In this document: piece after piece, positions 20,889-47,715 of the stretch
How the letters are laid out: each line of letters opens with the position of its first letter
Numbering within the stretch: the first letter of the stretch is position 1
Assembly: GCF_030811715.1 (NCBI RefSeq)
Contig: NZ_JAUSRH010000009.1
Span: forward strand, 1 to 64,000
Direction: 5' to 3'
DNA from: Sinomonas atrocyanea
GTDB lineage: Bacteria; Actinomycetota; Actinomycetes; Actinomycetales; Micrococcaceae
DNA: 64,000 nt
Translations under genes and position numbers: made by a program
The notes under the pieces: generated by a model
Told to the model about the DNA's origin: nothing
Database searches by the model: none
Seen by the model: the letters and a program-made list of their open reading frames with translations, nothing else

Positions 20889-21959
20889 ATGCGCGCCACC
20901 ATGATCCACGGAACCCGCGACATCCGCGTCGAGGACCGGCCCGAGCCGGAGGTCCGCCTCCCCGGCGACGCCGTGGTCCGCGTGACGGCGGCCTGCGTGT
21001 GCGGCTCCGACCTGTGGCCCTACCGCGGCGTCCGAGCCACGGAGGAGCCGCACCCGATCGGGCACGAGTTCGTCGGGGTCGTCGAGGCCGTCGGCGACGA
21101 CGTGACCGTGGTCAAGGTCGGCGACTTCGTGGTGGCGCCCTGGGCGATCTCCTGCGGAGAGTGCCCGCCGTGCCGCAACGGCGTGCAGGTCGCGTGCGAG
21201 CACCGCGCCGCGTGGGGCGGCTCCGACGAGCAGGGCCTTCCGGTGGACGGCGGCCAGGGGGAGCGGGTCCGTGTGCCCCTCGCCAACGGCACGCTCGTCC
21301 CGGTCCCCGGCGTGGCGGACCCGGACGAGGCCCTGACCAAGAGCCTGCTCACCCTCTCCGACGTCATGGGCACGGGCCACCACGCCGCCGTGGCCGCCCA
21401 GGTGGGCCCCGGCCGGAGCGTCGTGGTGGTGGGCGACGGCGCCGTGGGCCTGTGCGCGGTCCTCGCCGCCAAGCGCCTCGGCGCGGAGCGCATCATCGCC
21501 ATGTCCCGGCACGAGGACAGGGCCGCGATCGCCCGGCAGTTCGGCGCCACCGACGTGGTGGCCGAACGAGGCAAGGACGCCGCCGAGAAGGTCCGCTCGA
21601 TCCTCGGCGGCGTCCTGGCGGACTCGGTGCTCGAATGCGTCGGCACCAAGGAGTCCATGGAGCAGGCCTTCGCCTGCACCCGGCCCGGCGGCAGCCTTGG
21701 GTTCGTGGGCGTCCCCGCCGGCGGGGCGGAGCTGCCGATCGGCACCCTGTTCTCCAAGAACATCTCGGTGGGCGGCGGCGCCGCGTCCACCCGCGAATAC
21801 CTTCCCGAGCTGCTCGAGGACGTCCTCTCCGGCGCGATCAACCCCGGCCTCGTGTTCGACTCGGTCATGGCCCTCGAGGATGCCCCCGAGGCGTACCGGG
21901 CGATGGACGAGCGCCGCGCAACGAAGGTCATGCTCGTTCCCGCCGGGGCCCAGCAGTGA
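20889..21959 (+). CDS. Zinc-dependent alcohol dehydrogenase family protein
   Basis: 356 residues, medium-chain dehydrogenase. Catalytic-zinc ligands C38, H59-E60 (CVCGSDLW and IGHEF) and the structural-zinc cysteines C89, C92, C95, C103 are all present, as is the nucleotide-binding VVVGDGAVGLCAV motif near 178. It oxidises an alcohol or reduces an aldehyde with NAD(P); the substrate is not evident. RBS AAGGAG 7 nt before the ATG. It overlaps the deaminase gene by four bases (GTGA), so the two are co-translated. Confidence 0.9.
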   Translation: MRATMIHGTRDIRVEDRPEPEVRLPGDAVVRVTAACVCGSDLWPYRGVRATEEPHPIGHEFVGVVEAVGDDVTVVKVGDFVVAPWAISCGECPPCRNGVQVACEHRAAWGGSDEQGLPVDGGQGERVRVPLANGTLVPVPGVADPDEALTKSLLTLSDVMGTGHHAAVAAQVGPGRSVVVVGDGAVGLCAVLAAKRLGAERIIAMSRHEDRAAIARQFGATDVVAERGKDAAEKVRSILGGVLADSVLECVGTKESMEQAFACTRPGGSLGFVGVPAGGAELPIGTLFSKNISVGGGAASTREYLPELLEDVLSGAINPGLVFDSVMALEDAPEAYRAMDERRATKVMLVPAGAQQ

Positions 21960-22387
21960 GCGAAGGGTTCGAGGCGGCTCTGGCCGCCGCGCGGGAGGGC
22001 CTCGCCCAGGGCGGCATCCCCATCGGCGCCGCGCTGGTCCGCGGCGGCCAGGTGATCGCCGCAGGCCACAACGAGCGCGTCCAGAGCGGCGATCCGATCG
22101 CCCACGGCGAGATGGCCGCGCTGCGCTCGGCGGGGCGCCAGCGCACCTACCGTGACACCGTGCTGTACACGACGCTTGCTCCGTGCGCGATGTGCACCGG
22201 CACCATCATCCAGTTCAAGATCCCGAAGGTCGTGGTCGGGGAGGCGCGGACGTTCGGCGGCGAGCTCGAGCTGCTGCGCTCGCGCGGCGTCGAGGTCGAG
22301 GTGCTCGACGATCCGCGGTGCGTCCAGATGATGGCGGACTTCCAGCGCGAGCACGCCGAGCTGTGGGCGGAGGACATCGCCGAATAG
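21956..22387 (+). CDS. Fcy1-type cytosine deaminase-like protein
   Basis: 143 residues. Zinc-site motifs H50-G51-E52 and P76-C77-A-M-C80 of the CDA fold are intact. Beyond the zinc site it has the layout of the yeast-type cytosine deaminase (HGE rather than HAE, LYTTLAPCAMCTGTII, and the closing LWAEDI segment), not of the unrelated CodA. Expected reaction: cytosine to uracil plus ammonia. The next region is creatinine catabolism, and creatinine deamination is done by cytosine-deaminase-like enzymes in some bacteria, so creatinine as substrate is a possibility but only an inference. The GTG start overlaps the dehydrogenase stop. Confidence 0.85.
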   Translation: MSEGFEAALAAAREGLAQGGIPIGAALVRGGQVIAAGHNERVQSGDPIAHGEMAALRSAGRQRTYRDTVLYTTLAPCAMCTGTIIQFKIPKVVVGEARTFGGELELLRSRGVEVEVLDDPRCVQMMADFQREHAELWAEDIAE

Positions 22388-22400
22388 GGCGCGAGGACGG

Positions 22401-23210
22401 CTAGCCCGCGGCGGCGCGGCCGCCCGCGTTCCCGCCGAGCCGCCGGGTCACATCCGCCGCGGCACGGGCGCACGCGTCGCAGATCTCCGCGAGCCGCTCG
22501 GGGGAGACCCGGAACCGCGGGGCCGAGATCAGCACGGCGGCCACCACGTCGCCCCGGTGGTCGTACACGGGGGAGGCCACGCCCACTTCGTCGGGCGAGG
22601 TCTCGCCGTAGTTGACCGCATAGCCCTTCGCGGCGGCCTCGGCGAGGCGCACCGCGTAGGCATCGAGCGCCCGGCTGTCGGTGTGCGGCAGCTGCACCGC
22701 GCCGGTGGTCAGCAGCTCGCGGACCCGCTCGGGCGGTTCGGTCGCGAGGAAGACCTGCACGGAGGAGGACAGCGCCGTCCCGTAGCGGGTGCCCAGGGTC
22801 GTGGTGTGCTTGACCTGGTGACGGCTCGGGATCTGCTCGACCGAGACGGCCTCGTGCCCGTTCCAGAGCAGGAGCGCCGAGGTCTCGCCGGTCTTCTCGC
22901 CGAGTTCGCGGAGCACGGGGTAGGCCACCCGGCGAACGTCGAGGTCCGCGAGGAGCGGGCCCGCCACGGCGATGATGCCCAGCCCGAGCCGGAACCTGCG
23001 CGTCGGCTCGTCGCGCTCCACGAGTCCCTCGGACTCGAGGGTGCTCAGGATGCGGGAGACGGAGCTCTTGTGCAGGCCCACCTGGGCGGCGATCTCGGTG
23101 ACGCCCAGCAGTGGCTCGTCGACGCTGAAGCAGCGCAGCACCGCCACGGCGTTCGAGATGGGGGAGGCCGCGCGGCCCTCGCCGGCCTCGCCGTTGCCGT
23201 TCTCACTCAT
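22401..23210 (-). CDS. IclR-family regulator (IclR-1)
   Basis: 269 residues. Winged HTH at about 20-80 with recognition helix GLHKSSVSRIL, followed by an IclR effector domain (about 95-260) ending in a C-D-A-C-A segment. It is a close paralogue of the IclR protein at 38650, with near-identical recognition helix and long identical runs in the effector domain, so both may bind the same operator. It lies downstream of the creatinase gene on the same strand, separated by a terminator hairpin. It is probably a repressor or activator of the creatinine genes. Confidence 0.9.
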   Translation of the reverse strand: MSENGNGEAGEGRAASPISNAVAVLRCFSVDEPLLGVTEIAAQVGLHKSSVSRILSTLESEGLVERDEPTRRFRLGLGIIAVAGPLLADLDVRRVAYPVLRELGEKTGETSALLLWNGHEAVSVEQIPSRHQVKHTTTLGTRYGTALSSSVQVFLATEPPERVRELLTTGAVQLPHTDSRALDAYAVRLAEAAAKGYAVNYGETSPDEVGVASPVYDHRGDVVAAVLISAPRFRVSPERLAEICDACARAAADVTRRLGGNAGGRAAAG

Positions 23211-23286
23211 GGGTCAACCCTATGCGGCGGGCGCCGCCGGAGTGCTCAGTCATGGTGGTGTCCCCTTCTTTCACGGCTGCGGGCGT

Positions 23287-23334
23287 ACGACGGCGGCGCC
23301 GCACCCCGCGCGTGGCGGGGTGCGGCGCCGTCGT
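23287..23334 (-). terminator. Terminator of creatinase operon
   Basis: A 15-bp GC-rich stem with a 5-nt loop, extended by ACGAC/GTCGT across a 3-nt bulge. It starts 15 nt beyond the creatinase stop and separates it from IclR-1. Confidence 0.75.
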
Positions 23335-23348
23335 GCTCACCGTGGCCG

Positions 23349-24608
23349 TCAGGCCTCGATGATGTTCTTCTCGGGGCCGAACGGGAACTTGGTGATGTTC
23401 TCCACCGTGTCCTCGCCGATCACCAGGATGTCGTGCTCGCGGTAGCCGCCGGCGCCCGGGAGGCCGTCGGCGACCGTGATCATGGGCTCCATCGAGACGA
23501 CCATGCCCGGCTCGAGCACCGTCTCGATGTCCTCGCGCAGCTCGAGGCCCGCCTCGCGGCCGTAGTAGTGCGAGAGGACGCCGAACGAGTGGCCGTAGCC
23601 GAACGTGCGGTTGGCGAGGAGGCCGTGGGAGATGTAGATCTCGTTCAGCTCGGCGGCGATGTCCTTGCAGACGGCGCCGGGCTTGATGAGCTCGAGGCCG
23701 CGGCGGTGGACCTCCACGTTGATGTTCCACAGCTCGAGGGAGCGCTCGTCCGGCTGGCCCAGGAAGAGGGTGCGCTCAAGGGCCGTGTAGTAGCCGGAGG
23801 TCATCGGGAAGCAGTTCAGGGAGAGGATGTCGCCCCGCTGGAGCTTCCGGGTGGTGGCCCAGTTGTGGGCGCCGTCGGTGTTGATGCCGGACTGGAACCA
23901 GACCCACGTGTCGCGGACCTCGCGGTCCGGGAAGGTCTTGGCGATCTCGTGGACCATCGCCTCGGTGCCGATGAGCGCCACCTCGTACTCGGTGATGCCC
24001 TCGCGGATGGCGTTGCGGATGGCCTCGCCCCCGAGGTCGCCGATGCGGGCGCCGTGCTTGATGACCTCGATCTCCTCCGCGGACTTGATCATGCGCTGGC
24101 GCATGGCGTCCTGGGAGACATCGAGGAGCTGGGCGCCCGGGAACGCGGCGGCGATCTTCTCACGGGTCAGGGTGGGCAGGGCGTCGTCCTCGACGCCGAG
24201 GCGGGTGGCCTTGACGCCGCGCTGGCGCAGGGCCTCCTGCAGTCCGAAGTAGAAGTTGTCGCGGCGCCAGTCGGTGTAGACGATGTTCTCGCCGTAGGAG
24301 GTGCGCCACGGCATGCCGGCGTCGATGTTCGCCGTGACCGTGACCGAGTCGTCGGCGGTGACGACGAGCGCGTAGTTGCGGCCGAACGTGGTGTAGAGGA
24401 AGTCGGAGTAGTACTTGATGCCGTGGTAGCTGGTCAGGATGACCGCGTCCAGGTCCTTGGCGGCCATGATCTGGCGGAGGCCGGCGAGGCGGCGTTCGAA
24501 CTCGGCGTCTGAGAACGTGAGCTTGCCCTTCGTGCCGTTGTGCAGCACCTTGAGGCGCTCGAGCTCGGCGACGTTCGTGACGTTCGTGGAGGTCAGGTCG
24601 ACGGACAT
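23349..24608 (-). CDS. Creatinase (creatine amidinohydrolase)
   Basis: 419 residues. It hydrolyses creatine to sarcosine plus urea in the cytosol. The protein follows Pseudomonas creatinase closely along its whole length: FTSYH-like LTSYHGIKYYSDFLY near 59-72, NIVYTDWRRDN near 108-118, the FQSGINTDGAHN block with the catalytic-type His248 (His232 in the Pseudomonas enzyme), LNCFPM, GYGHSFGxLSHYYGREAGLELREDI and the GAGGYREHDIL tail. The fold is that of M24 aminopeptidases without the metal site. RBS AAAGGAG. It is co-directional with and 56 nt after the MHS carrier gene, which probably shares its promoter. Confidence 0.96.
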   Translation of the reverse strand: MSVDLTSTNVTNVAELERLKVLHNGTKGKLTFSDAEFERRLAGLRQIMAAKDLDAVILTSYHGIKYYSDFLYTTFGRNYALVVTADDSVTVTANIDAGMPWRTSYGENIVYTDWRRDNFYFGLQEALRQRGVKATRLGVEDDALPTLTREKIAAAFPGAQLLDVSQDAMRQRMIKSAEEIEVIKHGARIGDLGGEAIRNAIREGITEYEVALIGTEAMVHEIAKTFPDREVRDTWVWFQSGINTDGAHNWATTRKLQRGDILSLNCFPMTSGYYTALERTLFLGQPDERSLELWNINVEVHRRGLELIKPGAVCKDIAAELNEIYISHGLLANRTFGYGHSFGVLSHYYGREAGLELREDIETVLEPGMVVSMEPMITVADGLPGAGGYREHDILVIGEDTVENITKFPFGPEKNIIEA

Positions 24609-24664
24609 GGTGGGTCTCCTTTTCAGGGGTTGTGTGTGCGTGGAGGTGAGGAAAGTCGGGAAGG

Positions 24665-26038
24665 TCAGTGGGCCAGCGGCCGGCGGGAGGTCTCCTTGGC
24701 GCACAGGACGGCGATGAGGGAGACGATGGCAGCGGCGACGAGGTACCAGGCAGGCGCGAGCTTGGTGTGCATGACGCCGATCAGCAGGGTCGCCATGAAG
24801 GGGGCCGTGCCGCCGAAGACGGCGTTGGCGAGGTTGAAGCTCACCGCGAAGCCGGAGTACCGGATGCGGGTCGGGAACAGCTCGGCGAGGAAGCTCGGCA
24901 GCGTCCCGTCGTTGAGGGTGAGCATGGCGCCGAGGAAGACCTCGACGAGCAGGATCACGGCGAAGTTGCCGGAGTCCAGGAGCATGAAGGCCGGGACGGT
25001 GAGCAGGATGAACAGGATCGAGGCGGACAGGAGCACGCGCTTGCGGCCGAACCGGTCCGAGGCGAGCCCGGTGAGGAAGATGAAGCCGATGTAGGTCAGC
25101 AGGGCGATCGTCGTCGCGAAGAAGGACTCGGTGGCGCCGAAGCCCAGCTCGGTCGAGAGGTAGGTGGGCATGTAGGAGAGGATCACGTAGAAGCCGACGG
25201 CGTTGAGCAGGACCGCGCCGACCGCCAGGATGAGCGAGCGCCAGTGCTTGACGAACATGTCCTTGACGGGGGCATGGGTGACCTCGTCCTCCTTGGCCAG
25301 TTCGCGGAAGACCGGCGTGTCCTCGAGCTTGGTCCGGATGTACCGGCCGATCAGGCCCATGGGGGCCGCGAGCAGGAACGGCAGGCGCCAGCCCCAGGCG
25401 GCCATCTCGGAGTCGCTGAGGACGATCGAGAGCAGGGCCGCGAGGAGCGAGCCGAGCAGGAGGCCCGCCGCGGTGGACGCCGGGACGACGGCGGCGTAGA
25501 GGCCGCGGCGGTGGGCGGGGGCGTACTCGACGAGGAAGGCCGAGGCGCCGGCGTACTCGCCTGCGGCGGAGAAGCCCTGGATCACGCGGATCACGAGGAG
25601 GATGATCGGGGCCCCGACGCCGATCATGGCGTACGGCGGGATGAGGGCGATGCAGAACGTCGCGCCGCTCATGATGAGGATGGACAGGGAGAGGGCGGTG
25701 CGGCGGCCGAGGCGGTCGCCGATGTGGCCCCAGACGAAGCCGCCGAGGGGGCGGACGAAGAACGAGATCGCGAAGACCGCGAAGGTCGCCAGCAGCGCGG
25801 TCTGCTTGTCGGAGTCCGGGAAGAACGCTGCGGCGATCGTGGAGGCGAGGTAGCCGTAGACCGCGTAGTCGAACCACTCGACGAAGTTGCCGATGAAGCT
25901 GCCCCACAGGACCCGACGGCGGGCGTCTTTGCCGATGCCGTCGGACGCTGCCGGGGAGGGCTGTCCGCTCAGCGGCACGTCTGCCTCGGGCCCAGCGCTG
26001 GTCGGGGATGCCAGGCGGGGGGAGTGTTCAGTGCTCAT
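24665..26038 (-). CDS. MHS-type MFS transporter
   Basis: 457 residues, twelve transmembrane helices. It has the metabolite:H+ symporter signatures: VEWFDYAVYGYLA in helix 1, GGFVWGHIGDRLGRR between helices 2 and 3, and GEYAGASAF in helix 5. Members import organic acids, betaine or similar compounds; sitting immediately upstream of creatinase in one operon, creatine or a related guanidino compound is a likely substrate (inference). Its promoter is flanked by two copies of the GTTGC-N7-GCAAC palindrome. It resembles the MFS protein at 30628. Confidence 0.9.
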   Translation of the reverse strand: MSTEHSPRLASPTSAGPEADVPLSGQPSPAASDGIGKDARRRVLWGSFIGNFVEWFDYAVYGYLASTIAAAFFPDSDKQTALLATFAVFAISFFVRPLGGFVWGHIGDRLGRRTALSLSILIMSGATFCIALIPPYAMIGVGAPIILLVIRVIQGFSAAGEYAGASAFLVEYAPAHRRGLYAAVVPASTAAGLLLGSLLAALLSIVLSDSEMAAWGWRLPFLLAAPMGLIGRYIRTKLEDTPVFRELAKEDEVTHAPVKDMFVKHWRSLILAVGAVLLNAVGFYVILSYMPTYLSTELGFGATESFFATTIALLTYIGFIFLTGLASDRFGRKRVLLSASILFILLTVPAFMLLDSGNFAVILLVEVFLGAMLTLNDGTLPSFLAELFPTRIRYSGFAVSFNLANAVFGGTAPFMATLLIGVMHTKLAPAWYLVAAAIVSLIAVLCAKETSRRPLAH

Positions 26039-26060
26039 GGGAAACCACCAGAAGCTTGGG

Positions 26061-26148
26061 GTTGCGTTTACCGCAACTCGGTTGCACCAGACTACGTGTG
26101 GTCTGGGTCACGGTCAAGAACTCGCACCGATGTTGCGGCAGTTGCAAC
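26061..26148 (-). promoter_or_regulatory. Creatinase-operon promoter between two operators
   Basis: On the minus strand TTGACC (26117-26112), a 17-nt spacer and TAGTCT (26094-26089) form a good promoter. An exact 17-bp palindrome GTTGC-N7-GCAAC lies on each side: 26132-26148 upstream of the -35 and 26061-26077 downstream of the -10. A further half site GTTGC is at 26081-26085. The spacing would let a tetrameric IclR protein bridge the two sites. Confidence 0.75.
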
Positions 26149-26165
26149 CAGATGACGGGCTGCCA

Positions 26166-26957
26166 CTAGATGACGGCGAGAGGGGAGGTGGCGCGCAGCT
26201 CGGCGTCCACCTCCGCCGCGAGGGCCGCGGAGGTCCGCTCGAGGAGCAGCGCGCCGGCCTCGCCCGACGCCGCCGCCGCCGAGGAGAGGCACCCCGAGGC
26301 GGGGGTGAGCTCAGCCCGCACGGGCAGGACGTCGTACTTCGGCAGCCGCGCGGCGGGGAGGTCCATGACCCGGTCCAGCTGCACGCGCTCGGGATGCAGG
26401 TGGAGCATGAGCGAGGTCTCGAGGACGCCGCCGTGCTCCACGTCCCAGCCGGGGAAGGAGCCCCGGTAGATCTCCTCGATCGCGTCCTCGTCCACGAAGT
26501 CCCAGTAGGAGAGCAGGAGCGCCGAGACGTCCTCGCCCCGCAGGGCAAGCTCGGAGGTGGCCTGCTCGACGCCCTCGTAGAGGAACTGGTAGTTCTCGAA
26601 GTGGCCGTTGAGGAAGACGAGCCGCCGGGCACCGTGCCGCGCGAACTCGAAGGTGAGGGTGCGGGCGATCGAGATGAGCGTGGTCGCGTCCAAGCTGGTC
26701 GTGCCGCTGAGGTGGTTGCCGCCGCCCGAGCGCTGCTGCGACTTGTAGCCGTAGACGATCGGGGCCGCGACCAGGCCGCCCACGGCCTCGGCCAGCCGCT
26801 CGCTCATGGCCCGCGACAGGACGACGTCCGTGTTGAGCGGCAGGTGCGGGCCGTGCTGCTCGATCGAGCCCACGGGGATGATGATCGGCGCGCCCGCCGC
26901 GATGGCCTCGCGGTAGGTGAAGGCGTCGATCTCCTCCATGAAGACGCTGCTGGGCAT
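26166..26957 (-). CDS. crnA: Creatininase (creatinine amidohydrolase)
   Basis: 263 residues. Opens creatinine to creatine. The metal ligands of the Pseudomonas enzyme are at equivalent positions: E33, H35 (VGSIEQHGPH), D44 (LNTD), H119 and E121 (NGHFEN). The substrate-loop block YKSQQRSGGGNHLSGTTSLD is retained, as are SYWDF and WDVEHGGVLETS. The C-terminal half is somewhat longer and Ala-rich. RBS AGGAGG 6 nt before the ATG. It lies between the NCS1 permease and the MHS carrier on the same strand. A hairpin upstream suggests separate transcription or partial read-through. Confidence 0.96.
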   Translation of the reverse strand: MPSSVFMEEIDAFTYREAIAAGAPIIIPVGSIEQHGPHLPLNTDVVLSRAMSERLAEAVGGLVAAPIVYGYKSQQRSGGGNHLSGTTSLDATTLISIARTLTFEFARHGARRLVFLNGHFENYQFLYEGVEQATSELALRGEDVSALLLSYWDFVDEDAIEEIYRGSFPGWDVEHGGVLETSLMLHLHPERVQLDRVMDLPAARLPKYDVLPVRAELTPASGCLSSAAAASGEAGALLLERTSAALAAEVDAELRATSPLAVI

Positions 26958-26992
26958 GGCTCCTCCTGGGAACGTCGGTGATGTGTCTGGGA

Positions 26993-27022
26993 CGCCGGCG
27001 GCGGGCGGGCCCGCCGCCGGCG
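26993..27022 (-). terminator. Hairpin between NCS1 permease and creatininase
   Basis: A perfect 13-bp stem with a 4-nt loop (26993-27005 with 27010-27022), 22 nt after the permease stop and 35 nt before the creatininase start. It may terminate the permease message partly or protect the 5' end of the creatininase message. Confidence 0.6.
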
Positions 27023-27044
27023 GTGATGGGGTGCCCGAGAGGGG

Positions 27045-28607
27045 CTACGGGGCCACGGCGGCTGGCGAGCCGGCGGGCGACGCCGGCTGCTCGCCGTCGT
27101 GCGCCGAGGCGTCGCCGTGGGAGGCGAGGTACTCCTCGTCGCTCACGTCGGCCCGGATGCCGAGCGGGACGCCGTGGTGGATGCGGCTCTTGAAGCGCGG
27201 ATAGCCGAGGGCGAGGTAGAGCAGGCCCGAGGTCAGGGTCCCGGCGAGCCAGGAGAGGTCCACGCCGCCCATGGCGGTGGCGACGGGGCCCTGGAGGAGC
27301 GGATCACCGCCGTACATGAACATCCAGGTCATGACGAGGCCGATGAGGAAGGAGACCAGGGCGATCGGGTTGACGGCCTTGAGGCGCGTGTCCTTCGGGT
27401 CCAGGAAGAGGTAGCCGAAGTTCTTGTGGCGGCGCTCGAAGACGAAGTAGTGGACCGCCATGATGCCGCCCCACGTCGCGACCCAGGCGACGATGGCGCC
27501 GAGCCAGCTGTCCAGGAGCGCCGCGAAGTCCTCGGCGAAGAGGAAGAAGACCACCGCGACCATGGACAGGCAGCCCACGACGACGGACAGCGCGCGCCGG
27601 CCGATGCGGATGTCGAGAGCCTGGGCGGCCACGCCGAACGTGTAGAGGTTGATGATGTTCGTGGCGATCGGGCCGTGGATCACGAGCAGGATCACCGGGA
27701 TCGCCATGACGCCGAAGCTCTTGACGATCAGCTCGCCTGGGTCCGCGGTGCCGTTCATCGTCGCGAGGCTCGCGCCGAGCAGACCCAGCCACACGACCGG
27801 CAGGAACTGGCCCAGGACCGAGGTGAAGTAGAGCTTCTTCTTCGGGATGCTCTTGGAGACGAAGCGGGAGTAGTCGGGGGCGTAGGTGAACCAGCCGATG
27901 CCCCAGCCGATGCCGATCGCGGTCATGATCCCGGACATTGCGGCGATGCGCTCGCCGCCGGTGAGGATCGCGCCCGCCGGCCCTGCGTAGTGCCAGTCGA
28001 TCGGCAGCTGGGTCCACGCGATGATGGACATCGCGACGAGGACGAGGAGGGTCGGCGGCATGGTGATGCGCTCGAACTTCGCGATCGCGCCGTACCCGCG
28101 GTAGCAGATGGTGACCTGGATGCCCATGATCACGGCGGCGATGCCGATCTTCCAGGCCAGGTTCTGCTGCGTCGGGTCGACCCAGCCGATCATGCCGAAG
28201 AGCGCCATGACGAGGTCGAGGATGACCCACGTGTTCACGGCGGACCAGCCGACGGCGACGAGGGCCTGGATCGCCGCGGGCAGGTAGGCGCCGCGGCGGC
28301 CGAACGCCCCGCGGGCCAGGAGCATGCCGGTGGCGCCGGTCTTCTGTCCGAGCAGGACGAAGAAGCCGAAGCCGACCATGCCGATGACGTTGCCGAGGAC
28401 GAGCACGGTCATCGTGTCGGCGAGGCCGAGGCCCATGTTGATGCCGAGGGCACCGAGGATCCAGTTGATGGGGGCAACGTTGGCCCCAGCCCAGATCCAG
28501 AACTGCCCGGAGACCTTGGTGGTGCGAGCAGACTCGGGGACGGGCTGCAGCACGTCTTCGACGACGTGCGTGGCGTCCTCAGTCTTGCTCTGAGTGCGAA
28601 GGCTCAT
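27045..28607 (-). CDS. NCS1-family permease, probable creatinine transporter
   Basis: 520 residues, twelve predicted helices, with a charged N-terminal tail and a His/Pro/Ala-rich C-tail. NCS1 features include NVAPINWILGALGINMGLGL in helix 1 and the G-x-G-x-GWFTYAPDYSRF segment. Family members carry cytosine, purines, allantoin or hydantoins; the position directly upstream of creatininase makes creatinine (a cyclic N-heterocycle) the likely cargo, as for the crnT-type permeases of creatinine clusters. It is divergent from the PucR regulator. The leader has a small stem ACTAC/GTAGT around the region just upstream of the ATG that may modulate translation. Confidence 0.88.
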   Translation of the reverse strand: MSLRTQSKTEDATHVVEDVLQPVPESARTTKVSGQFWIWAGANVAPINWILGALGINMGLGLADTMTVLVLGNVIGMVGFGFFVLLGQKTGATGMLLARGAFGRRGAYLPAAIQALVAVGWSAVNTWVILDLVMALFGMIGWVDPTQQNLAWKIGIAAVIMGIQVTICYRGYGAIAKFERITMPPTLLVLVAMSIIAWTQLPIDWHYAGPAGAILTGGERIAAMSGIMTAIGIGWGIGWFTYAPDYSRFVSKSIPKKKLYFTSVLGQFLPVVWLGLLGASLATMNGTADPGELIVKSFGVMAIPVILLVIHGPIATNIINLYTFGVAAQALDIRIGRRALSVVVGCLSMVAVVFFLFAEDFAALLDSWLGAIVAWVATWGGIMAVHYFVFERRHKNFGYLFLDPKDTRLKAVNPIALVSFLIGLVMTWMFMYGGDPLLQGPVATAMGGVDLSWLAGTLTSGLLYLALGYPRFKSRIHHGVPLGIRADVSDEEYLASHGDASAHDGEQPASPAGSPAAVAP

Positions 28608-28696
28608 GTGAGACTACTTTCTCGTAGTGTTCGCTGGGGGAGCGAGTAGCCGGCTGCCTTCAAGCGTAGATGTGCGGCGCGTCACCACCTAGATAC

Positions 28697-28743
28697 GTTG
28701 TGTCGCCCAACATGAGGGGTGCGGGCGACAATCTGTCTACCCT
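28697..28743. promoter_or_regulatory. NCS1/pucR intergenic inverted repeat
   Basis: The 166-nt divergent gap holds TGTCGCCC (28701-28708) and GGGCGACA (28723-28730), a perfect 8-bp inverted repeat with a 14-nt spacer (about two helical turns centre to centre). A TACCCT -10-like hexamer at 28738-28743 points toward pucR. This looks like an operator for the PucR protein controlling itself and the permease. Confidence 0.5.
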
Positions 28744-28773
28744 TGTGATGTTCCAGCCGAGAGTGAGACCGTC

Positions 28774-30279: not shown

Positions 30280-30296
30280 CCCCCTCCTCTTCTCCG

Positions 30297-30374
30297 TTTC
30301 GGGTACGCATCTCGTCGCTGTTTCCCCATTTCGGGTACGCATCTCGTAGCCACTTTCCCGTTCCGGGTACGAGG
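30297..30374. repeat. 32-bp tandem repeat array A
   Basis: Two full units (30297-30328, 30329-30360) and a 14-nt partial third unit. Core on the minus strand: CGACGAGATGCGTACCCG. The same family occurs inverted at 39467-39548. The array ends in a 22-nt perfect palindrome (30369-30390). Confidence 0.85.
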
Positions 30375-30444
30375 CCGCGCGCGGCCTCGTAGGGACCGCG
30401 GGCATTGCGGCACGTCGGATGGGTGCACGCCGGATGCCGGATGC

Positions 30445-30516: not shown

Positions 30517-30551
30517 GGGCTGAGCCGCCAGGCCCTTCTCCCCGGACACGC

Positions 30552-38397: not shown

Positions 38398-38468
38398 GTG
38401 GCTTTCCTTTCGATCGCTCCGCCCTGGGGCTGGCGGAACCGGTATGTTGTTGCTTTCGCATCAAGCTA

Positions 38469-38574
38469 GTTGGGCAGTGAGCAACGTGGGTTTCGAACAG
38501 GTAAGACGTTTCGCACGTGAGCTGAATCACATATGATGTTGCTGTGCTCCCAAAGTAGTTGCTCGCTTAGCACC
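38469..38574. promoter_or_regulatory. Operators between N-methylhydantoinase and IclR-2
   Basis: The 252-nt divergent gap contains GTTGG-N7-GCAAC (38469-38485) and GTTGC-N7-GCACC (38558-38574), each one base from the exact palindrome, plus half sites GTTGC at 38449-38453 and 38538-38542. The region is AT-richer than the genome. Promoter hexamers could not be fixed. Confidence 0.65.
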
Positions 38575-38649
38575 GCACAAGAGGTCAAGCCGAGATGACA
38601 CAGGACTCTAAGATGAGAGCCACGCACCCGACCGGAAGAGGAGTGGACC

Positions 38650-39456: not shown

Positions 39457-39466
39457 GCTGGCCCTG

Positions 39467-39548
39467 GCGTACCCGGAACGCAGAAACGGCGACGAGATGC
39501 GTACCCGGAACGCGGAAACGGCGACGAGATGCGTACCCGAAACGGGGG
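39467..39548. repeat. 32-bp tandem repeat array B
   Basis: Two full units (39467-39498, 39499-39530) and a partial third unit. Core CGACGAGATGCGTACCCG, same family as array A at 30297 but in the opposite orientation. It fills the gap between two convergent regulator genes (stops at 39456 and 39560), where no hairpin terminator is seen. Confidence 0.88.
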
Positions 39549-39559
39549 AGTGGCAGGGG

Positions 39560-40222
39560 TCAGAGGACCGTTCGGATCGTCGCCTCGAAGCTCGTGACGT
39601 GCTCGAGCGCCATGCGCCCGGCGGCCTCGACGTCGCCGGCGGCGATCGCGCGCAGCAGCTCGGCGTGCTCGTGGATGTGCCCGGCCACTGAGGGGACCTT
39701 GTCCAGCACCAGGCACCAGATGCGGGTGGCGAGGTTGTCGTAGCGGATGAGCGCGTCCGTGAGGTGCGGGTTGCCGGCCGCGGCGTAGATCAGCCGGTGG
39801 ACCGTGATGTCGTACCGCATGAGCTCGCGCTGGTCGATCGGCTCGCGCAGCGCCTCGATGGCGTCCGCGGTCTCGCGCAGCCTGGTCCTCATCGCCGGCG
39901 AGGCGTCCCGCGCCGCGCGCCTGGCCGCAAGCGGCTCCAGCTGCTCGCGGATCTCCGAGACGTCGGCGAGCTCGGTGATGTCCACGGCGGTCGCGAAGGT
40001 TCCGCGCCTGGGATAGGAGACCACGAGGCGGTCCACCTCGAGCCGCTTGAGCGCCTCGCGCACGGGGGTGCGCCCCACGCCGAGCTCCGCGGCGAGCGCC
40101 GTGTCGTTGATGGGTGCGCCGGGCTTGATCTCGAGCATGATCAGCCGGTCGCGGAGAGTCAGGTACGCCTGCTCCGCCAGCGACACCGCCGACGCCGCAT
40201 CCTGAAGTGCTGTGACTGTCAC
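39560..40222 (-). CDS. GntR-family regulator, FCD type
   Basis: 220 residues. N-terminal winged HTH (about 17-82, with GVGRTPVREALKRLE) and a helical FCD ligand domain (about 85-215) with metal-ligand-type D and H residues (YDITVHRLIY and a later HEHAELL). It is divergent from glyA-soxBDAG-purU, so it is the probable local regulator of sarcosine oxidation. GTG start with GGAAGGAGG ribosome site. Confidence 0.9.
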   Translation of the reverse strand: MTVTALQDAASAVSLAEQAYLTLRDRLIMLEIKPGAPINDTALAAELGVGRTPVREALKRLEVDRLVVSYPRRGTFATAVDITELADVSEIREQLEPLAARRAARDASPAMRTRLRETADAIEALREPIDQRELMRYDITVHRLIYAAAGNPHLTDALIRYDNLATRIWCLVLDKVPSVAGHIHEHAELLRAIAAGDVEAAGRMALEHVTSFEATIRTVL

Positions 40223-40259
40223 CTTCCGCCTCCTTCCGGGACTGCTTGACTCTGTGTGA

Positions 40260-40330
40260 TCTCAACCATACTATCGATCTCAGAACTAATATATCAGTTG
40301 ATTATTAGTCAGATATCAACGTCGATGTCA
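40260..40330. promoter_or_regulatory. AT-rich operator region of gntR / glyA-sox
   Basis: A strikingly AT-rich 60-bp island. Two interleaved 6-bp inverted repeats are seen: ACTAAT (40285-40290) with ATTAGT (40304-40309), and GTTGAT (40297-40302) with ATCAAC (40315-40320). This is a good candidate for the GntR binding site covering both divergent promoters. Confidence 0.6.
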
Positions 40331-40343
40331 GACCGAAGGAGGC

Positions 40344-41663
40344 ATGATGGAGAACCTTCTCGATCTCCCACTGGCCCAGGCAGACCCCGAGGTGGCCGAG
40401 GCCATCGCCGCCGAGCTCCGCCGGCAGCAGGGAACGCTCGAGATGATCGCGAGCGAGAACTTCGCGCCCACGGCCGTCATGGAGGCCCAGGGCTCCGTGC
40501 TGACGAACAAGTACGCCGAGGGCTACCCGGGCAAGCGCTACTACGGCGGCTGCGAGCACGTGGACGTCATCGAGCAGCTCGCGATCGACCGGGCCAAGGC
40601 CCTGTTCGGCGCCGAGTTCGCCAACGTCCAGCCGCACTCGGGCGCCCAGGCCAACGCCGCCGCGATGCACGCGCTCATCCAGCCCGGTGACACGATCATG
40701 GGCCTCGACCTCGCCCACGGCGGCCACCTCACGCACGGGATGAAGATCAACTTCTCCGGCAAGCTCTACAAGGTGGTCCCTTACCAGGTGTCCGAGAAGG
40801 ACCACCGGATCGACATGGCCGAGGTCGAGCGCCTTGCCGAGGAGCACCGGCCGCAGCTCATGATCGCGGGCTGGTCCGCCTACAGCCGCCAGCTGGACTT
40901 CGCCGAGTTCCGCCGCATCGCCGACAAGGTGGGCGCGTTCCTGCTCGTGGACATGAGCCATTTCGCTGGCCTCGTGGCCACCGGCCTGCACCCGAACCCG
41001 GTCCCGCACGCGCACGTCACCACGACGACGACGCACAAGACCCTCGGCGGCCCGCGCGGCGGCATCATCCTCACCAACGACCCCGCGCTCGCCAAGAAGG
41101 TCAACTCGGCGGTGTTCCCGGGCCAGCAGGGCGGGCCCCTCGAGCACGTGATCGCGGGCAAGGCCGTGGCCTTCAAGTTCGCCGCGACCGAGGAGTTCGC
41201 GGACCGGCAGCGCCGCACCCTCGAGGGCGCGCGCATCCTGGCCGACCGGCTCACCCAGCCCGACCTCGCGAAGGCCGGCATCGGCGTCGTCAACGGCGGC
41301 ACCGACGTGCACCTGGTCCTCGTGGACCTGCGTCACTCCGAGCTGGACGGCCAGCAGGGCGAGGACCGCCTCCACCGGATCGGCATCACGGTCAACCGCA
41401 ACGCCGTCCCGTTCGACCCGCGCCCGCCGATGGTGTCCTCGGGGCTGCGGATCGGCACCCCGGCGCTCGCGACCCGCGGCTTCGGCGCCGCGGAGTTCAC
41501 CGAGGTCGCCGACATCATCGCCGCAGCCCTCGCGCCCGAGTTCGACGACGAGCTCGCCGCCTCGCTGCGCTCCCGCGTGGCGGTCCTCGCCGACAAGCAC
41601 CCCCTCTACCCGAACCTGACCCCGGCCGAGTCCGGGGCCTCCACCGAGAACGGAGCCCAGTGA
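40344..41663 (+). CDS. glyA: Serine hydroxymethyltransferase
   Basis: 439 residues, PLP enzyme. It has [13 protein letters not shown]-like opening, ENYASP-equivalent [33 protein letters not shown] and the Schiff-base lysine K232 in [14 protein letters not shown]. It interconverts glycine plus 5,10-methylene-THF with serine. As first gene of the sarcosine operon it uses both products of SoxBDAG. This is likely a second, catabolic GlyA. It overlaps soxB by one base (TGATG). Confidence 0.96.
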
Positions 41664-42880
41664 TGGCGGACCTCCTGCCCGAACACCCGGACTTCCTCTG
41701 GCGCAACCCGGACCCGAAGCCCTCGTACGACGCCGTGATTGTCGGCGGCGGCGGCCACGGCCTCGCCACCGCGTACTACCTCGCGGCCCACCACGGCATG
41801 ACCAACATCGCGGTCCTCGAGCGCGGCTGGCTCGCCGGCGGGAACATGGCCCGCAACACCACGATCATCCGCTCGAACTACCTGTGGGACGAGTCCGCGG
41901 CGATCTACGAGCACTCCCTCAAGCTGTGGGAGGCCCTGCCCGAGGAGCTCGAGTACGACTTCCTGTTCAGCCAGCGCGGCGTCATGAACCTCGCGCACAC
42001 GCTCCAGGACGTGCGCGAGTCGGTCCGCCGCGTCGGCGCGAACAAGCTCAACGGCGTGGACGCCGAGTGGCTCGACGCGGACCAGGTCAAGGAGCTCTGC
42101 CCGATCATCAACGTCAGCGAGGACATCCGCTACCCGGTCCTCGGCGCGACCTACCAGCCGCGCGCGGGCATCGCCAAGCACGACCACGTCGCCTGGGCCT
42201 TCGCCCGCAAGGCGGACGAGCTCGGCGTCGACATCATCCAGAACTGCGAGGTCACCGGCTTCATCAAGGACGGCAACCGCGTGGTGGGCGTGAAGACGAA
42301 CCGCGGGACCATCAACACCGGCAAGGTCGCGCTCTGCGCCGCGGGCCACTCGAGCGTCCTGGCCAAGCTCGCCGGCTTCGACCTGCCGATCCAGTCCCAC
42401 CCGCTCCAGGCGCTCGTCTCCGAGCTCCACGAGAAGGTCCACCCCACCGTGGTGATGTCCAATCACGTCCACGTCTACGTCTCCCAGGCGCACAAGGGCG
42501 AGCTCGTCATGGGCGCCGGCATCGACTCGTACAACGGGTACGGCCAGCGCGGGGCGTTCCACGTCATCGAGGAGCAGATGGCCGCGGCCGTCGAGCTGTT
42601 CCCGATCTTCGCCCGCGCGCACCTGCTGCGCACGTGGGGCGGAATCGTGGACGTCACCCTCGACGCGTCCCCGATCGTGGGCAAGGCCCCGGTCGAGAAC
42701 ATGTACGTCAACTGCGGCTGGGGCACCGGCGGCTTCAAGGGCACCCCCGGCGCCGGCTGGACCATGGCCCACACCATCGCCACCGGCGAGCCGCACGCCC
42801 TCAACCTGCCCTTCGCCCTCGAGCGCTTCGAGACCGGCGCCCTCATCGACGAGCACGGCGCCGCAGCCGTCGCCCACTGA
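41663..42880 (+). CDS. soxB: Sarcosine oxidase beta subunit
   Basis: 405 residues from the ATG at 41663. FAD-binding [16 protein letters not shown] near 24-39. His173 in [11 protein letters not shown] is at the position of the covalent FMN histidine of heterotetrameric sarcosine oxidases. It demethylates sarcosine to glycine, with the methyl group going to THF. Part of glyA-soxB-soxD-soxA-soxG-purU. Confidence 0.96.
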
Positions 42881-42903
42881 CGCACCCGAAAGGAGCAACG
42901 AGC

Positions 42904-43206
42904 ATGCTGCTCATCACCTGCCCGAACTGCGGGCCGCGGGACGAGACCGAGTTCCACTACGGCGGCCAGGCCCACGTGGCCTACCCCGAGAACCCCGCCG
43001 AGCTGACCGACGCCGAGTGGTCGCGGTACCTGTTCTACCGGGAGAACCCGAAGGGCGCCTTCGCCGAGCGCTGGGTGCACACCGCCGGGTGCCGGAAGTG
43101 GTTCAACGCGGTCCGCGACACCGTCACCTACGAATTCAAGAGCATCTACACCGGCGCCGCGCCAGCGGCGACCACCGCCGCAGCCACGAATGGAGGCCAG
43201 AAGTGA
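42904..43206 (+). CDS. soxD: Sarcosine oxidase delta subunit
   Basis: 100 residues. The zinc ligands of the delta subunit, C6, C9, H59 and C63, are present (CPNC and VHTAGC). The C-terminal Ala/Thr-rich tail is longer than in some family members. It overlaps soxA by four bases (GTGA). AAAGGAG ribosome site before the ATG. Confidence 0.95.
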
Positions 43207-46160
43207 GCCCCGCATCCCAGAGCCACCGTCTCCCCGCCGAGAAGGCGCAGGGCGCGCGGATCGACCGCGAGAAGGCCCTGCGGTTCAGCGTGGACGGGAC
43301 CGAGTACACGGGCTTCGCCGGCGACACGGTCGCCTCCGCCCTGCTCGCCAACGGCGTCATCGAGACCGCCCCGTCCATGTACCTGGGCCGCCCGCGCGGC
43401 ATCCTCGCCGCCGGCGTCGAGGAGCCCAACGCCCTGCTCAAGGTCCTCCAGCGCGGCGCCGGCGGCGTCGACGAGTCGATGCTCCCCGCACCGATCGTCG
43501 AGCTCACCGACGGCCTGGCCGCCCAGTACCTCGCGGGCCTCGGGCAGCTCGACCCGCGCAAGGACGAGGCCGTCTACGACAAGAAGCACGTCCACACCGA
43601 CGTCCTCGTGGTCGGCGGCGGCCCCTCCGGCCTCGCCGCGGCCCGCGAGGCGGCCCGGACCGGCGCCCGCGTGATCCTGGTCGACGATCAGCCGGAGCTG
43701 GGCGGCTCGCTGCTCTCCGCCCCCGCCGAGACGGTCGACGCCGTCCCCGCGCCGGAGTGGGTCGCGGCGGCTGCCGCCGAGCTCGCCGCCGCGGACGAGG
43801 TGACCGTCCTGACCCGCACGAACGCGTTCGGCTCCTACGACTCGAACTACATCGTGGCCCTCGAGTCCCGCACCGACCACCTCGGCACCGACCGGGCCCG
43901 CGAGCTGGACGCCCAGGGCGTCTCGCGCCAGCGGCTGTGGCACATCCGCGCCGCCCAGGTCATCCTCGCGACCGGCGCCCACGAGCGCCCGATCGTGTTC
44001 GCGGACAACGACCGCCCGGGCATCATGCTCGCCTCGGCGGCCCGCACCTACCTCAACCGCTACGGCGTGCGCCCCGGCTCCTCGGCGGTGGTCTTCACGA
44101 CCAACGACTCCGCCTACGCCACGGCCCTCGACCTCGCCGCGGCGGGAGTGGCCGTCGGCGCCGTCGTCGACGCCCGCGCCGAGAAGACCGAGGCCGCGCT
44201 CGCGGCCGAGGCCGCCGGCGTCCGCGTCATCGCAGGCTCCGCGGTGAGCGGCACCGAGGCGGGTGGCGGCACCCGGCTGGGCGCCGTCGTCGTGCGCGGG
44301 CTCACCGCGGACGGTGAGCTGACCGGCGAGGGCGAGCGGATCGAGGCGGACCTCCTGGCCGTCTCGGGCGGCTGGAGCCCCGTGGTGCACCTGTTCAGCC
44401 AGCGGCAGGGCAAGCTGCGCTGGGACGAGGACCTCGCGGGCTTCGTGCCTGCCGGCACGGTCGAGGCGCAGCAGGTCGTCGGTTCTGCCCGTGGCTCCTA
44501 CGCCACGGCCGACGTGGTCTCCGAGGGTGCCCACGCTGGCGCCGTCGCGGCCTTCAACGCCGGCTTCATCACCGAGGCCGGCCAGCACGCCACCGCGGTC
44601 TCCTCCCACCCGGCCGTCGCCTCGGCCCCGACCCGCCAGCTCTGGCTCGTGCCGGGCGAGACGGGCAGCCCCGAGGACTGGAACACCCACTTCGTCGACT
44701 TCCAGCGCGACCAGACCGTGCACGACGTCCTCCGCGCGACCGGCGCCGGCATGCGCTCGGTCGAGCACATCAAGCGCTACACCTCGATCTCCACCGCCAA
44801 CGACCAGGGCAAGACCTCGGGCGTGAACGCGATCGGCGTGATCGCGGCGGCGCTGAAGGGCGACGGCGACGCGCCCGGCATCGGCCAGATCGGCACGACG
44901 ACGTTCCGGGCCCCCTACGCCCCCGTCGCGTTCGCCGCGATGGCGGGCCGCAAGCGCGGGGACCTGTTCGACCCCGAGCGGATCACCTCGATCCACCCGT
45001 GGCACGTCGAGCACGGCGCGAAGTTCGAGTTCGTGGGCCAGTGGCTGCGCCCGTGGTACTTCCCGCAGGGCGAGGAGACCATGGACGAGGCCGTGCTGCG
45101 CGAGTGCGCCGCGGTGCGCGAGTCCGTGGGCTTCATGGACGCGACCACCCTGGGCAAGATCGAGATCTGGGGCGCCGATTCGGGCGAGTTCCTCAACCGC
45201 ATCTACACGAACGCGTTCAAGAAGCTCGCCCCCGGGATGGGCCGCTACGGCGTCATGTGCGGCCCCGACGGCATGATCTTCGACGACGGTGTGACCCTCC
45301 GCCTCGATCAGGACCGCTACTTCATGACCACCACCACCGGCGGTGCCGCGAAGGTCCTCGACTGGCTCGAGGAGTGGCACCAGACCGAGTGGCCCGAGCT
45401 GGACGTGAACTTCACGTCGGTGACCGAGCAGTGGACCACGGTCGCCGTGGTCGGCCCGAAGTCCCGGGCGGTCATCGCCAAGGTGGCCCCGGAGCTCGAC
45501 GTCGACAACGACGCCTTCGGCTTCATGGCCTGGCGCGACACCGTCCTCGCCTCCGGCATCCCCGCCCGCGTGTGCCGCATCTCGTTCTCCGGCGAGCTCG
45601 CCTACGAGATCAACGTCGCCGCCTGGTACGGGCTGCAGGTGTGGGAGGACGTCGCCGAGGCCGGCGCCGAGTTCGACATCACCCCGTACGGCACCGAGAC
45701 CATGCACGTGCTCCGCGCCGAGAAGGGCTACCCGATCGTCGGCCAGGACACGGACGGCACCGTGACCCCGCAGGACGCCGGCATGGAGTGGATCGTCTCC
45801 AAGGCCAAGGACTTCGTCGGCAAGCGCTCCTACTCGCGCCTCGACACGGCGCGCGCGGACCGCAAGCACCTCGTGTCCCTGCTGCCGGTGGACCCGTCCT
45901 TCCGCCTCCCGGAGGGGACCCAGGTGGTCGAGCAGGGGATCGCCCTCAATCCCGCCTACGGGCCCGTGCCGATGCAGGGCCACGTCACGTCGAGCTACCA
46001 CTCGGCGGCGCTGGGGCGCTCCTTCGCCCTGGCCCTCATCAAGAACGGCCGCAACCGCATCGGCGAGACGCTCACCGCCGTCGCCGGCGACCGGCTCGTT
46101 GACGTCCTGGTCGGTGAGACCGTCCTCTTTGACCCCGAAGGGAAGCGCCGTGATGGCTGA
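43203..46160 (+). CDS. soxA: Sarcosine oxidase alpha subunit
   Basis: 985 residues from the GTG at 43203. An N-terminal ferredoxin-like segment ([24 protein letters not shown]) is followed by a NAD-binding Rossmann domain ([17 protein letters not shown] near 137) and a C-terminal aminomethyltransferase-type THF-binding domain (about 600-985). It channels the iminium product to THF, forming 5,10-methylene-THF. The ending overlaps the soxG start by 8 nt. Confidence 0.96.
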
Positions 46161-46830
46161 GACGATTGCTGAAGTGACTGCCCCCGCCAAGACCGCCGGA
46201 GCGCCGGCCCTGCGCCGCAGCCCCGCGGCCCGCCTCGCCGGCGCGTTTGCCGCCGCGGCCGTCGCCGGGGACCGGGGCGTGGCCGTCCGTGAGGTCCCGT
46301 TCCTGACCCAGCTGGGCCTGCGCGTGGTGCCCGGCTCCGCGGGCGCCGCCGCCCTCGAGTCCGCGCTCGGCACCACCCTGCCCGCTGGGCACGGCGCCAC
46401 GAGCGCCGGCGCCGGGTACACGGTCCTGTGGATCGGGCCGGACGAGTTCCTCGCGGTGGCCGACGAGACCCCGACCTCCGCGGACGAGGACCGCGGGCCC
46501 GCCGAGGCCGCCCGGGTGGGCGCAGCCCTCGGCGGGGCCGGCGCGCGGACCCCGGGCGCCGTCGTCGACCTCTCCGCCAACCGGACCACGTTCGAGCTCA
46601 CCGGCCCGAGCGCCCGCGCGGTCCTCGAGAAGGGCGTCTCGTTCGACCTGCACCCGCGGCACTTCGCCGCCGGCACGGCCGTCGCGACGGTCCTGGACCA
46701 CGTGCCCGTCCTCGTGTGGAAGACGGGGGAGGAGGCGTACCGCGTCCTGGCGCGCGCATCCTTCGCCGACCACGTGGGGCGCTGGCTCATCGACGCGATG
46801 CGCGAGTACACCGTGCCGGAGGTGCGGTAG
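46153..46830 (+). CDS. soxG: Sarcosine oxidase gamma subunit
   Basis: 225 residues. Gamma-type features include a WIGPDEFL motif near 95 and a [24 protein letters not shown] segment, followed by the FDLHPRHF stretch. This subunit has no cofactor and helps build the heterotetramer. The N-terminal 40 residues are Ala-rich and longer than usual. The alternative start GTG at 46150 is one codon upstream. Confidence 0.9.
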
Positions 46831-46833
46831 CCG

Positions 46834-47715
46834 ATGGCTGGCGTGGCGCGCGAGTACGTCCTGACGCTCGACTGCGCCGAGGGACCCGGGATCGTCTACG
46901 CGGTCTCCGGGTTCCTCGCCGAGCGCGGGTGCGACATCGTTGACATCAAGCAGTTCGGGGACCGCCGCGGGGGCCACTTCTTCATGCGGGTGCACTTCGA
47001 GGCGCCCGCCGGCAGCGGCACCGACGGCGCGGACGACGACGGCGACCGCCTCCGCGCGGAGTTCGCCCCGGTCGCGGCGCGGTTCGGCATGGAATGGAGG
47101 CTGCGCCCGGCGGGCGAGCGGACGCGCGTGCTGCTCATGGTCTCCAAGTTCGGCCACTGCCTCAACGACCTGCTCTTCAGGGCGCGGGTCGGCGAGCTGC
47201 CGATCGACATCGTGGCGGTCGTCTCCAACCACGAGGACCACCGCGGGCTCGTCGAATGGCACGGCATCCCCTACCACCACATCCCGGTGACCAAGGAGAC
47301 CAAGCCCGAGGCCGAGGCCAAGCTCCTGGCGCTCGTGGACGCGTACGCGGTGGAGCTCGTGGTGCTCGCGCGCTACATGCAGGTCCTCTCGGACCAGCTC
47401 GCCACCAAGATGGCGGGACGGGTGATCAACATCCACCACTCGTTCCTGCCCTCGTTCAAGGGCGCCAAGCCCTACCACCAGGCGTGGGAGCGCGGGGTCA
47501 AGACCGTGGGGGCCACCGCCCACTACGTCAACGCAGAGCTGGACGAGGGGCCGATCATCGCCCAGCAGGTCATCGAGGTGGACCACACCCACGCGCCCGA
47601 GGACCTCGTGGCGGTGGGCCGCGACGCCGAGTGCAAGGCCCTCTCCAACGCGGTGCGCTGGCACTGCGAGGGGCGCGTGATCCTCAACGGCAGCCGCACG
47701 GTGGTGCTGCGGTAG
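46834..47715 (+). CDS. purU: Formyltetrahydrofolate deformylase
   Basis: 293 residues. N-terminal ACT domain (about 8-85: LDCAEGPGIVYAVSGFL) and C-terminal formyltransferase-like hydrolase domain (about 103-290) with NHEDHR, IPYHHIPV and the catalytic-type block NIHHSFLPSFKGAKPYHQA. It hydrolyses 10-formyl-THF to formate and THF. In this operon it regenerates the THF consumed by SoxA when sarcosine flux is high. The start follows soxG by 3 nt. Confidence 0.95.
   Translation: MAGVAREYVLTLDCAEGPGIVYAVSGFLAERGCDIVDIKQFGDRRGGHFFMRVHFEAPAGSGTDGADDDGDRLRAEFAPVAARFGMEWRLRPAGERTRVLLMVSKFGHCLNDLLFRARVGELPIDIVAVVSNHEDHRGLVEWHGIPYHHIPVTKETKPEAEAKLLALVDAYAVELVVLARYMQVLSDQLATKMAGRVINIHHSFLPSFKGAKPYHQAWERGVKTVGATAHYVNAELDEGPIIAQQVIEVDHTHAPEDLVAVGRDAECKALSNAVRWHCEGRVILNGSRTVVLR

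Follow-up and report, generated by a model that had tools for sequence, protein, structure and literature searches.

Does a single bacterium carry two parallel ways of turning creatinine into sarcosine, and how are the genes for them put together? The question is raised by the window analysed here, a stretch of 64,000 nucleotides on contig 9 of the 4.23 Mb genome of Sinomonas atrocyanea, in which genes for the use of creatinine, creatine, N-methylhydantoin and sarcosine lie side by side (Table 1). In soil and in hosts, the breakdown of creatinine supplies nitrogen, and the enzymes that carry it out are used in kidney-function assays. When it starts from creatinine, the N-methylhydantoin route requires a creatinine deaminase. 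An earlier note, made from the sequence alone, had read positions 21956-47715 as two creatinine-to-sarcosine routes in one island. Both enzyme sets were indeed present, but for the creatinine deaminase of the second route no CodA-type gene was found in the genome. We conclude that the locus is very probably a catabolic island of modular build, through which N-methyl compounds (creatine, creatinine, N-methylhydantoin) are channelled into one sarcosine sink.

The enzyme assignments of the earlier note were upheld by comparison with family models and solved structures. Creatininase scored above the cut-off of its model and possesses all five metal ligands (E33, H35, D44, H119, E121). Creatinase aligned with 1chm over 22-417, reached 572 bits with this chain, 520 with 7yto and 516 with 1kp0 versus 91 for the best prolidase, and retains the catalytic H248. 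The D51/K144/C177 triad was recovered in the amidase, which matched 1nba, the N-carbamoylsarcosine amidohydrolase of Arthrobacter sp. (source named in PMC8864220). The single-chain hydantoinase aligned over residues 1-1279 of 1284 with 7hk5, a chain named N-methylhydantoinase, and is by this full-length similarity a predicted ATP-dependent N-methylhydantoinase. Both 1nba and 7hk5 are very similar to the window enzymes over nearly their full length, with no difference visible in the sequences. The glyA-soxBDAG-purU run (40347-47715, forward strand) matched the expected models throughout. The four subunit genes of a heterotetrameric sarcosine oxidase lie together, three of them above the cut-offs of TIGR01372, TIGR01373 and TIGR01374 and the gamma subunit through PF04268; scanned from an upstream start (46099-46830), the latter reached 139.8 bits with TIGR01375, just under the cut-off of 143.95. 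The counts of other genes had to be lowered from five regulators and five transporters to four of each within 21956-47715 (IclR at 22401, PucR at 28774, IclR at 38650 and GntR at 39560; MFS at 24665, 30628 and 33043 and NCS1 at 27045), the EamA-type transporter starting just outside at 47735.

The relation between the two enzyme sets was examined in 245 Micrococcaceae genomes, with E-value cut-offs of 1e-250 for N-methylhydantoinase, 1e-140 for creatinase, 1e-60 for creatininase, 1e-35 for the small deaminase that abuts the island and 1e-30 for the urease alpha subunit; these were found in 32, 114, 81, 67 and 134 genomes, respectively. The earlier note had stated that the two routes are usually described as alternatives in different strains and had suggested a search for their co-occurrence in related genomes. 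This search gave the opposite of alternation, creatinase being present in all 32 genomes with N-methylhydantoinase versus 82 of the 213 others (Fisher p 1.6e-12). Counted by genus, creatinase occurred in 12/12 with N-methylhydantoinase versus 7/20 without it (p 4.5e-4). We likewise recovered creatinase at 79% identity or more in 28/28 genomes, and creatininase in 20/28 (E <= 1e-20), when the source genome was taken together with the 27 named relatives that hold a close N-methylhydantoinase (a set that leaves out L032, a fragment, and L033-L034, relatives at 31%).

The word island proved apt. In two other Sinomonas genomes, the segment at about 22388-48669 is missing between conserved flanks: flank homology stops at window position 22383 and restarts at 48670 in one (G177, locus L140), and stops at 22387 and restarts at 48708 in the other (G234, L141). 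The flanks, adh and the small deaminase gene fcy on one side and an FMN-reductase-like gene on the other, are separated by about 175 bases in G177 and by about 1 kb of other DNA in G234. The island is thus bounded as a presence/absence block of about 26.3 kb. The small deaminase lies outside it, the stop of its gene marking the left edge; the right edge precedes the FMN-reductase-like gene at 48704. The alcohol-dehydrogenase-like flank gene was also present in the island-less loci (L139-L141), and no EamA-type transporter turned up in the DNA that separates the flanks in L140 and L141. These neighbourhood comparisons, like those of the hydantoinase and deaminase loci below, took in matches covering at least 40% of the query. 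A third genome, G033, which has no creatinase match, keeps beside its deaminase gene a remnant of iclR1, 62 residues long and 69% identical (L139, 7911-8096). It is probably a scar left by loss of the island, so that at least one absence looks like loss.

Within the island, the N-methylhydantoin genes form a cassette of their own. In G064 (L103), homology spans window positions 28775-30279 and restarts at 39557-40391, with no cassette between pucR and gntR. N-methylhydantoinase was found in 5/15 Sinomonas genomes. Creatinase, creatininase, the CreT-like symporter, the permease, pucR and an IclR gene are common to one side of the Sinomonas loci examined, gntR, glyA and the sox genes lie on the other side where the contig reaches that far, and the variation is located between pucR and gntR. 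This gap is occupied by the cassette in the window, in G189 and in G111 (L028). In G224 and G253, it holds by Pfam match a DAO/GcvT protein with the layout of dimethylglycine dehydrogenase, a GMC oxidoreductase and an OpuAC betaine-type ABC system; a Rieske oxygenase with its partner and an aldehyde dehydrogenase were additionally seen in G224, the only one of the two scanned for them. Judged by their families, these genes plausibly form a choline-betaine-dimethylglycine feeder. The cassette occurs together with GMC and OpuAC genes in G131 and G148, and the identical five-gene order, at 65-75% identity, stands beside betaine-type genes in G125, which belongs to another genus. In our reading of this arrangement, the sarcosine sink stays constant and the feeders placed in the pucR-gntR slot can be exchanged.

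As a separate observation, the N-methylhydantoinase of G148 (L112) is 79% identical to that of the window and 84% to that of G125, and the amidase and the one MFS gene compared, both neighbours of it, are 97% identical to their window counterparts; this hydantoinase is perhaps a replaced allele.

From family knowledge and gene position, we infer the following reaction steps, substrates, regulation and fluxes for Sinomonas. In the core, creatinine would enter through the NCS1 permease and creatine likely through the MFS symporter at 24665, which lies near creatinase in many clusters. Creatininase would open creatinine to creatine, creatinase would split creatine into sarcosine and urea, and SoxBDAG would oxidise sarcosine to glycine, passing the methyl group to tetrahydrofolate, while GlyA and PurU would balance glycine and one-carbon units. 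The permease and pucR adjoin crnA, and both remain next to crnA/creA even where no deaminase match was obtained, in the Sinomonas genomes G162, G202, G213 and G243, so that the permease is probably a carrier of creatinine. In the cassette, N-methylhydantoin would be hydrolysed at the expense of ATP to N-carbamoylsarcosine, which the amidase would turn into sarcosine, carbon dioxide and ammonia. The earlier note had proposed that nitrogen release is divided between urea and ammonia. This division is not implied, since the genome has a match to the urease alpha subunit (G000:C4:131498-131869) and its urease could hydrolyse the urea; what is split is the path and not the end product. In a genome of another genus (G031:C13, L124), a urease alpha match (21169) and creatinase (25883) are about 5 kb apart, a closeness that would couple urea release and urea use.

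Several points weigh against this funnel reading. The proposed transporter substrates rest on gene position, and pathway activity is a prediction from genes. The surveyed genomes are related and hence not independent, which makes the p values a guide only, and within Sinomonas alone the nesting was not significant (5/5 versus 7/10, p 0.51). Of the 32 genomes with N-methylhydantoinase, 27 have creatininase and 24 a urease match, the core thus being incomplete in some. The two enzyme sets mostly lie apart: among the 27 named relatives, creatinase or creatininase was located within 10 kb of the hydantoinase in just two, L012 (Citricoccus) and L028 (Sinomonas), which is a minimum since contig ends cut some loci short; the single-island arrangement therefore looks mainly like a feature of Sinomonas and Citricoccus. 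Lastly, the likely loss in G033 counts among these points.

Two rival readings share the core and differ only in the source of N-methylhydantoin. According to the first, the cassette serves solely for N-methylhydantoin from outside, for instance from creatinine-deaminating neighbours, creatinine is used only via creatininase, and the small deaminase is a cytosine salvage enzyme. With two MFS transporters and an IclR regulator of its own, the cassette can be expected to act on external N-methylhydantoin. The small deaminase is missing from 13/32 genomes with N-methylhydantoinase, three of which have neither deaminase nor creatininase, and in Corynebacterium glutamicum creatinine yields N-methylhydantoin as a dead end, according to PMC8864220. 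The deaminase itself matched yeast cytosine deaminase 1uaq (E 1e-33) and keeps the zinc ligands, catalytic glutamate and substrate contacts of that enzyme (H62, E64, C91, C94, N51, F114, W152 and D155). These residues did not separate creatinine-linked from unlinked copies, both having those of the yeast enzyme. What speaks against salvage is that the deaminase recurs inside runs of creatinine genes in several genera; the chances for and against this first reading seem to us about equal.

The second reading makes this deaminase the source: it would convert creatinine to N-methylhydantoin and ammonia, and the cassette would continue to sarcosine, giving two full creatinine routes in one cell. 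Neither the deaminase, whose start at 21956 opened the stretch discussed in the earlier note, nor the creatinine deaminase step was named there. If N-methylhydantoin is made inside the cell, this enzyme at the island edge would be its likeliest source. In PMC8864220 and PMC7848895, the step is assigned to CodA or a COG0402 cytosine deaminase. In the source genome, the CodA-type profile NF005759 gave no match at 1e-15, the Escherichia coli and C. glutamicum controls being positive; weak matches below the cut-off occurred in 7/28 genomes, and some relatives may hold a CodA-like enzyme. The broader PF07969 gave 14 matches in the same genome, and none of the five loci scanned, holding 7 of the 14, was CodA: they encode HutI, two Xaa-Pro-dipeptidase-like proteins and two unassigned amidohydrolases.

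In 35/67 carrier genomes, from eight genera, the start of the small deaminase is at most 5 kb away from creatinase or creatininase, and random placement would give about 0.3 of 57 (by start coordinates, with one or two reference positions per genome and copies on other contigs taken as unlinked). It stands inside creatinine gene runs in several orders, namely permease-fcy-crnA-creA-CreT-iclR1 in L122, crnA-fcy-permease in L121, fcy-crnA-creA in L119 and creA-fcy in L125, L126 and L136. The retention of permease and PucR with crnA/creA in the four deaminase-less Sinomonas genomes also agrees with this reading. In the deaminase tree, the deep branches are mostly creatinine-linked copies, with unsure rooting and long branches; tree and pocket comparison left out matches below 48% identity or spanning fewer than 116 residues, as well as identical copies. 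A work by Kim (1987), titled as dealing with cytosine deaminases that hydrolyse creatinine, is cited in PMC11970497. On the other hand, the deaminase is a flank gene in Sinomonas, where G177 and G234 keep adh-fcy with the island gone, and for 31/67 copies neither creatinase nor creatininase was located within 8 kb, the standalone ones lying in unrelated, uninformative neighbourhoods. Among creatinase genomes, it was not significantly more common with N-methylhydantoinase (19/32 versus 36/82, p 0.15); its absence from 13 of these 32 and the unvarying pocket residues also count against it as the source. We regard two full routes as possible, on the doubtful side of an even chance. The same tentative standing applies to the proposal, based on genomic linkage, that in Micrococcaceae creatinine is deaminated by this small yeast-type enzyme of the CDA fold, which has no relation to the CodA/COG0402 enzymes.

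A last possibility, that the hydantoinase is a 5-oxoprolinase, the amidase acts on another ureido acid and their neighbourhood is coincidental, is highly improbable: the fused A/B layout is common to eukaryotic 5-oxoprolinases (PMC8453981), but the hydantoinase scored 2561 bits with the named N-methylhydantoinase versus 388 with a chain named 5-oxoprolinase, action on 5-oxoproline alone being unlikely because of the near full-length alignment with the former, the amidase scored 542 bits with 1nba, and in 24/27 named relatives no more than 10 kb separates the two genes.

The funnel reading can be set beside known systems. In Arthrobacter sp. TE1826 (Nishiya 1998, cited in PMC8864220), creatininase, creatinase and sarcosine oxidase genes reportedly lie together, as in the window, with a sarcosine oxidase said to be monomeric, unlike the heterotetrameric one found here; no N-methylhydantoin genes are known in that cluster. 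A close precedent in content is C. glutamicum ATCC 14067, for which PMC8864220 describes CodA, creatininase, N-carbamoylsarcosine amidase and the hydantoinase HyuB in one strain, together with a permease, CrnT. Unlike in the window, these genes form several separate operons with AmtR sites, the deaminase is CodA, and the portions of that account concerned mention no creatinase, which the window has; the window differs further by its single island, its own regulators and its heterotetrameric sarcosine oxidase. Arthrobacter sp. AQ5-05 (L025, L087) has hydantoinase, amidase, creatinase, creatininase and small deaminase in one genome, as in S. atrocyanea, but its two enzyme sets are on different contigs. 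Its locus L025 holds two N-carbamoylsarcosine amidase genes (1513-2307 and 5529-6323), both 92% identical to that of the window, and near both a single-chain hydantoinase of 1288 residues (7188-11054). In contrast, the hydantoinase is labelled a heterodimer in a figure legend of PMC8864220 for the strains listed there, which include AQ5-05. Tissierella creatinophila has creatininase-type, cytosine deaminase and N-carbamoylsarcosine amidase genes and no creatinase (PMC5364220), and two potential routes from creatinine to ammonia are mentioned for two thaumarchaeal genomes in PMC7848895. Among the matches listed for the open-licence part of PubMed Central, which excludes subscription papers and supplements, no paper dealt with a yeast-type creatinine deaminase or with this Sinomonas island. 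The enzyme kinds, and genes of both routes in one genome (C. glutamicum), are thus already known; new are the nesting of N-methylhydantoinase within creatinase genomes, the island with its edges and those of the cassette, the swappable slot and the deaminase candidate.

Regulatory sites could be proposed for two intergenic stretches. The ATATATCA motif was found in 17/18 gaps between gntR and glyA versus 0.025 in shuffles and is a possible GntR operator. A palindrome, GTGAC-N5-GTCAC, occurred with at most one mismatch in 10/27 stretches between pucR and the permease versus 0.13 in shuffles and could be a PucR site in relatives; it is not claimed for the window, because its own pucR-permease stretch held no copy even at two mismatches. 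A tRNA-Pro called by ARAGORN at 37962-38051 on the forward strand lies antisense inside the hydantoinase gene and is almost surely false. Elsewhere in the family, creatinase is duplicated in G004 (L091), with the copies around creatininase, and a second creatinase at 56-61% identity was seen in six Yaniella and Enteractinococcus genomes. A BCCT-type transporter, a possible creatine importer, adjoins creatininase or creatinase in other genera (L086, L097, L094, L012).

Table 1. Features of the creatine/creatinine/sarcosine island and its flanks, in window coordinates.
Feature	Position	Strand	Remarks
Zn alcohol-dehydrogenase-like gene (adh)	20889..21959	+	4-base overlap with deaminase; chromosomal flank
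fcy-like small deaminase, CDA fold	21956..22387	+	143 aa; PF00383 85.8 bits; abuts island
Whole creatine/creatinine/sarcosine island	22388..48669		about 26.3 kb; presence/absence block
IclR-type regulator iclR1	22401..23210	-	PF01614/PF09339
Creatinase creA	23349..24608	-	PDB 1chm 572 bits; H248
MFS metabolite/H+ symporter (CreT-like by position)	24665..25978	-	TIGR00883 398 bits, under cut-off 443
Creatininase crnA	26166..26957	-	TIGR04448 323.2 bits, cut-off 235; 1j2t E 8e-77
NCS1 permease	27045..28607	-	PF02133 140.6 bits
PucR-type regulator	28774..30279	+	PF07905/PF13556; divergent from permease
N-methylhydantoin cassette (MFS, amidase, MFS, N-methylhydantoinase, IclR)	30280..39556		9.3 kb
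Cassette MFS transporter mfs2	30628..31986	-	PF07690/PF00083
N-carbamoylsarcosine amidase	32096..32875	-	1nba 542 bits; D51/K144/C177 triad
Cassette MFS transporter mfs3	33043..34287	-	PF07690; adjoins hydantoinase
Single-chain ATP-dependent N-methylhydantoinase (predicted)	34543..38397	-	1284 aa, A/B halves fused; PF01968+PF02538
Cassette IclR-type regulator iclR2	38650..39456	+	PF01614/PF09339; divergent from hydantoinase
GntR/FCD regulator	39560..40222	-	PF07729/PF00392; divergent from glyA
glyA-sox promoter-like stretch	40245..40297	+	ATATATCA motif at 40289
Serine hydroxymethyltransferase glyA	40347..41663	+	NF000586 598 bits
Sarcosine oxidase beta soxB	41663..42880	+	TIGR01373 623 bits
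Sarcosine oxidase delta soxD	42904..43206	+	TIGR01374 133 bits
Sarcosine oxidase alpha soxA	43203..46160	+	TIGR01372 1242 bits
Sarcosine oxidase gamma soxG	46279..46830	+	PF04268 68 bits, cut-off 21
Formyltetrahydrofolate deformylase purU	46834..47715	+	TIGR00655 327 bits
EamA-type transporter	47735..48646	-	PF00892; right end of island

In the surveyed genomes, the N-methylhydantoin route is found only where creatinase is present and thus looks like an add-on to creatine use rather than a replacement for it. The exchangeable slot, placed over a sarcosine oxidase operon that stays constant, illustrates how pathways of this kind are put together. If the small deaminase does act on creatinine, the second creatinine route would be complete, and the cell could choose between an ATP-free branch yielding urea and an ATP-costing branch yielding ammonia, both above the swappable sarcosine funnel. 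If confirmed, a new creatinine deaminase fold would alter how a common "cytosine deaminase" gene is annotated and provide assays with a new enzyme of small size.

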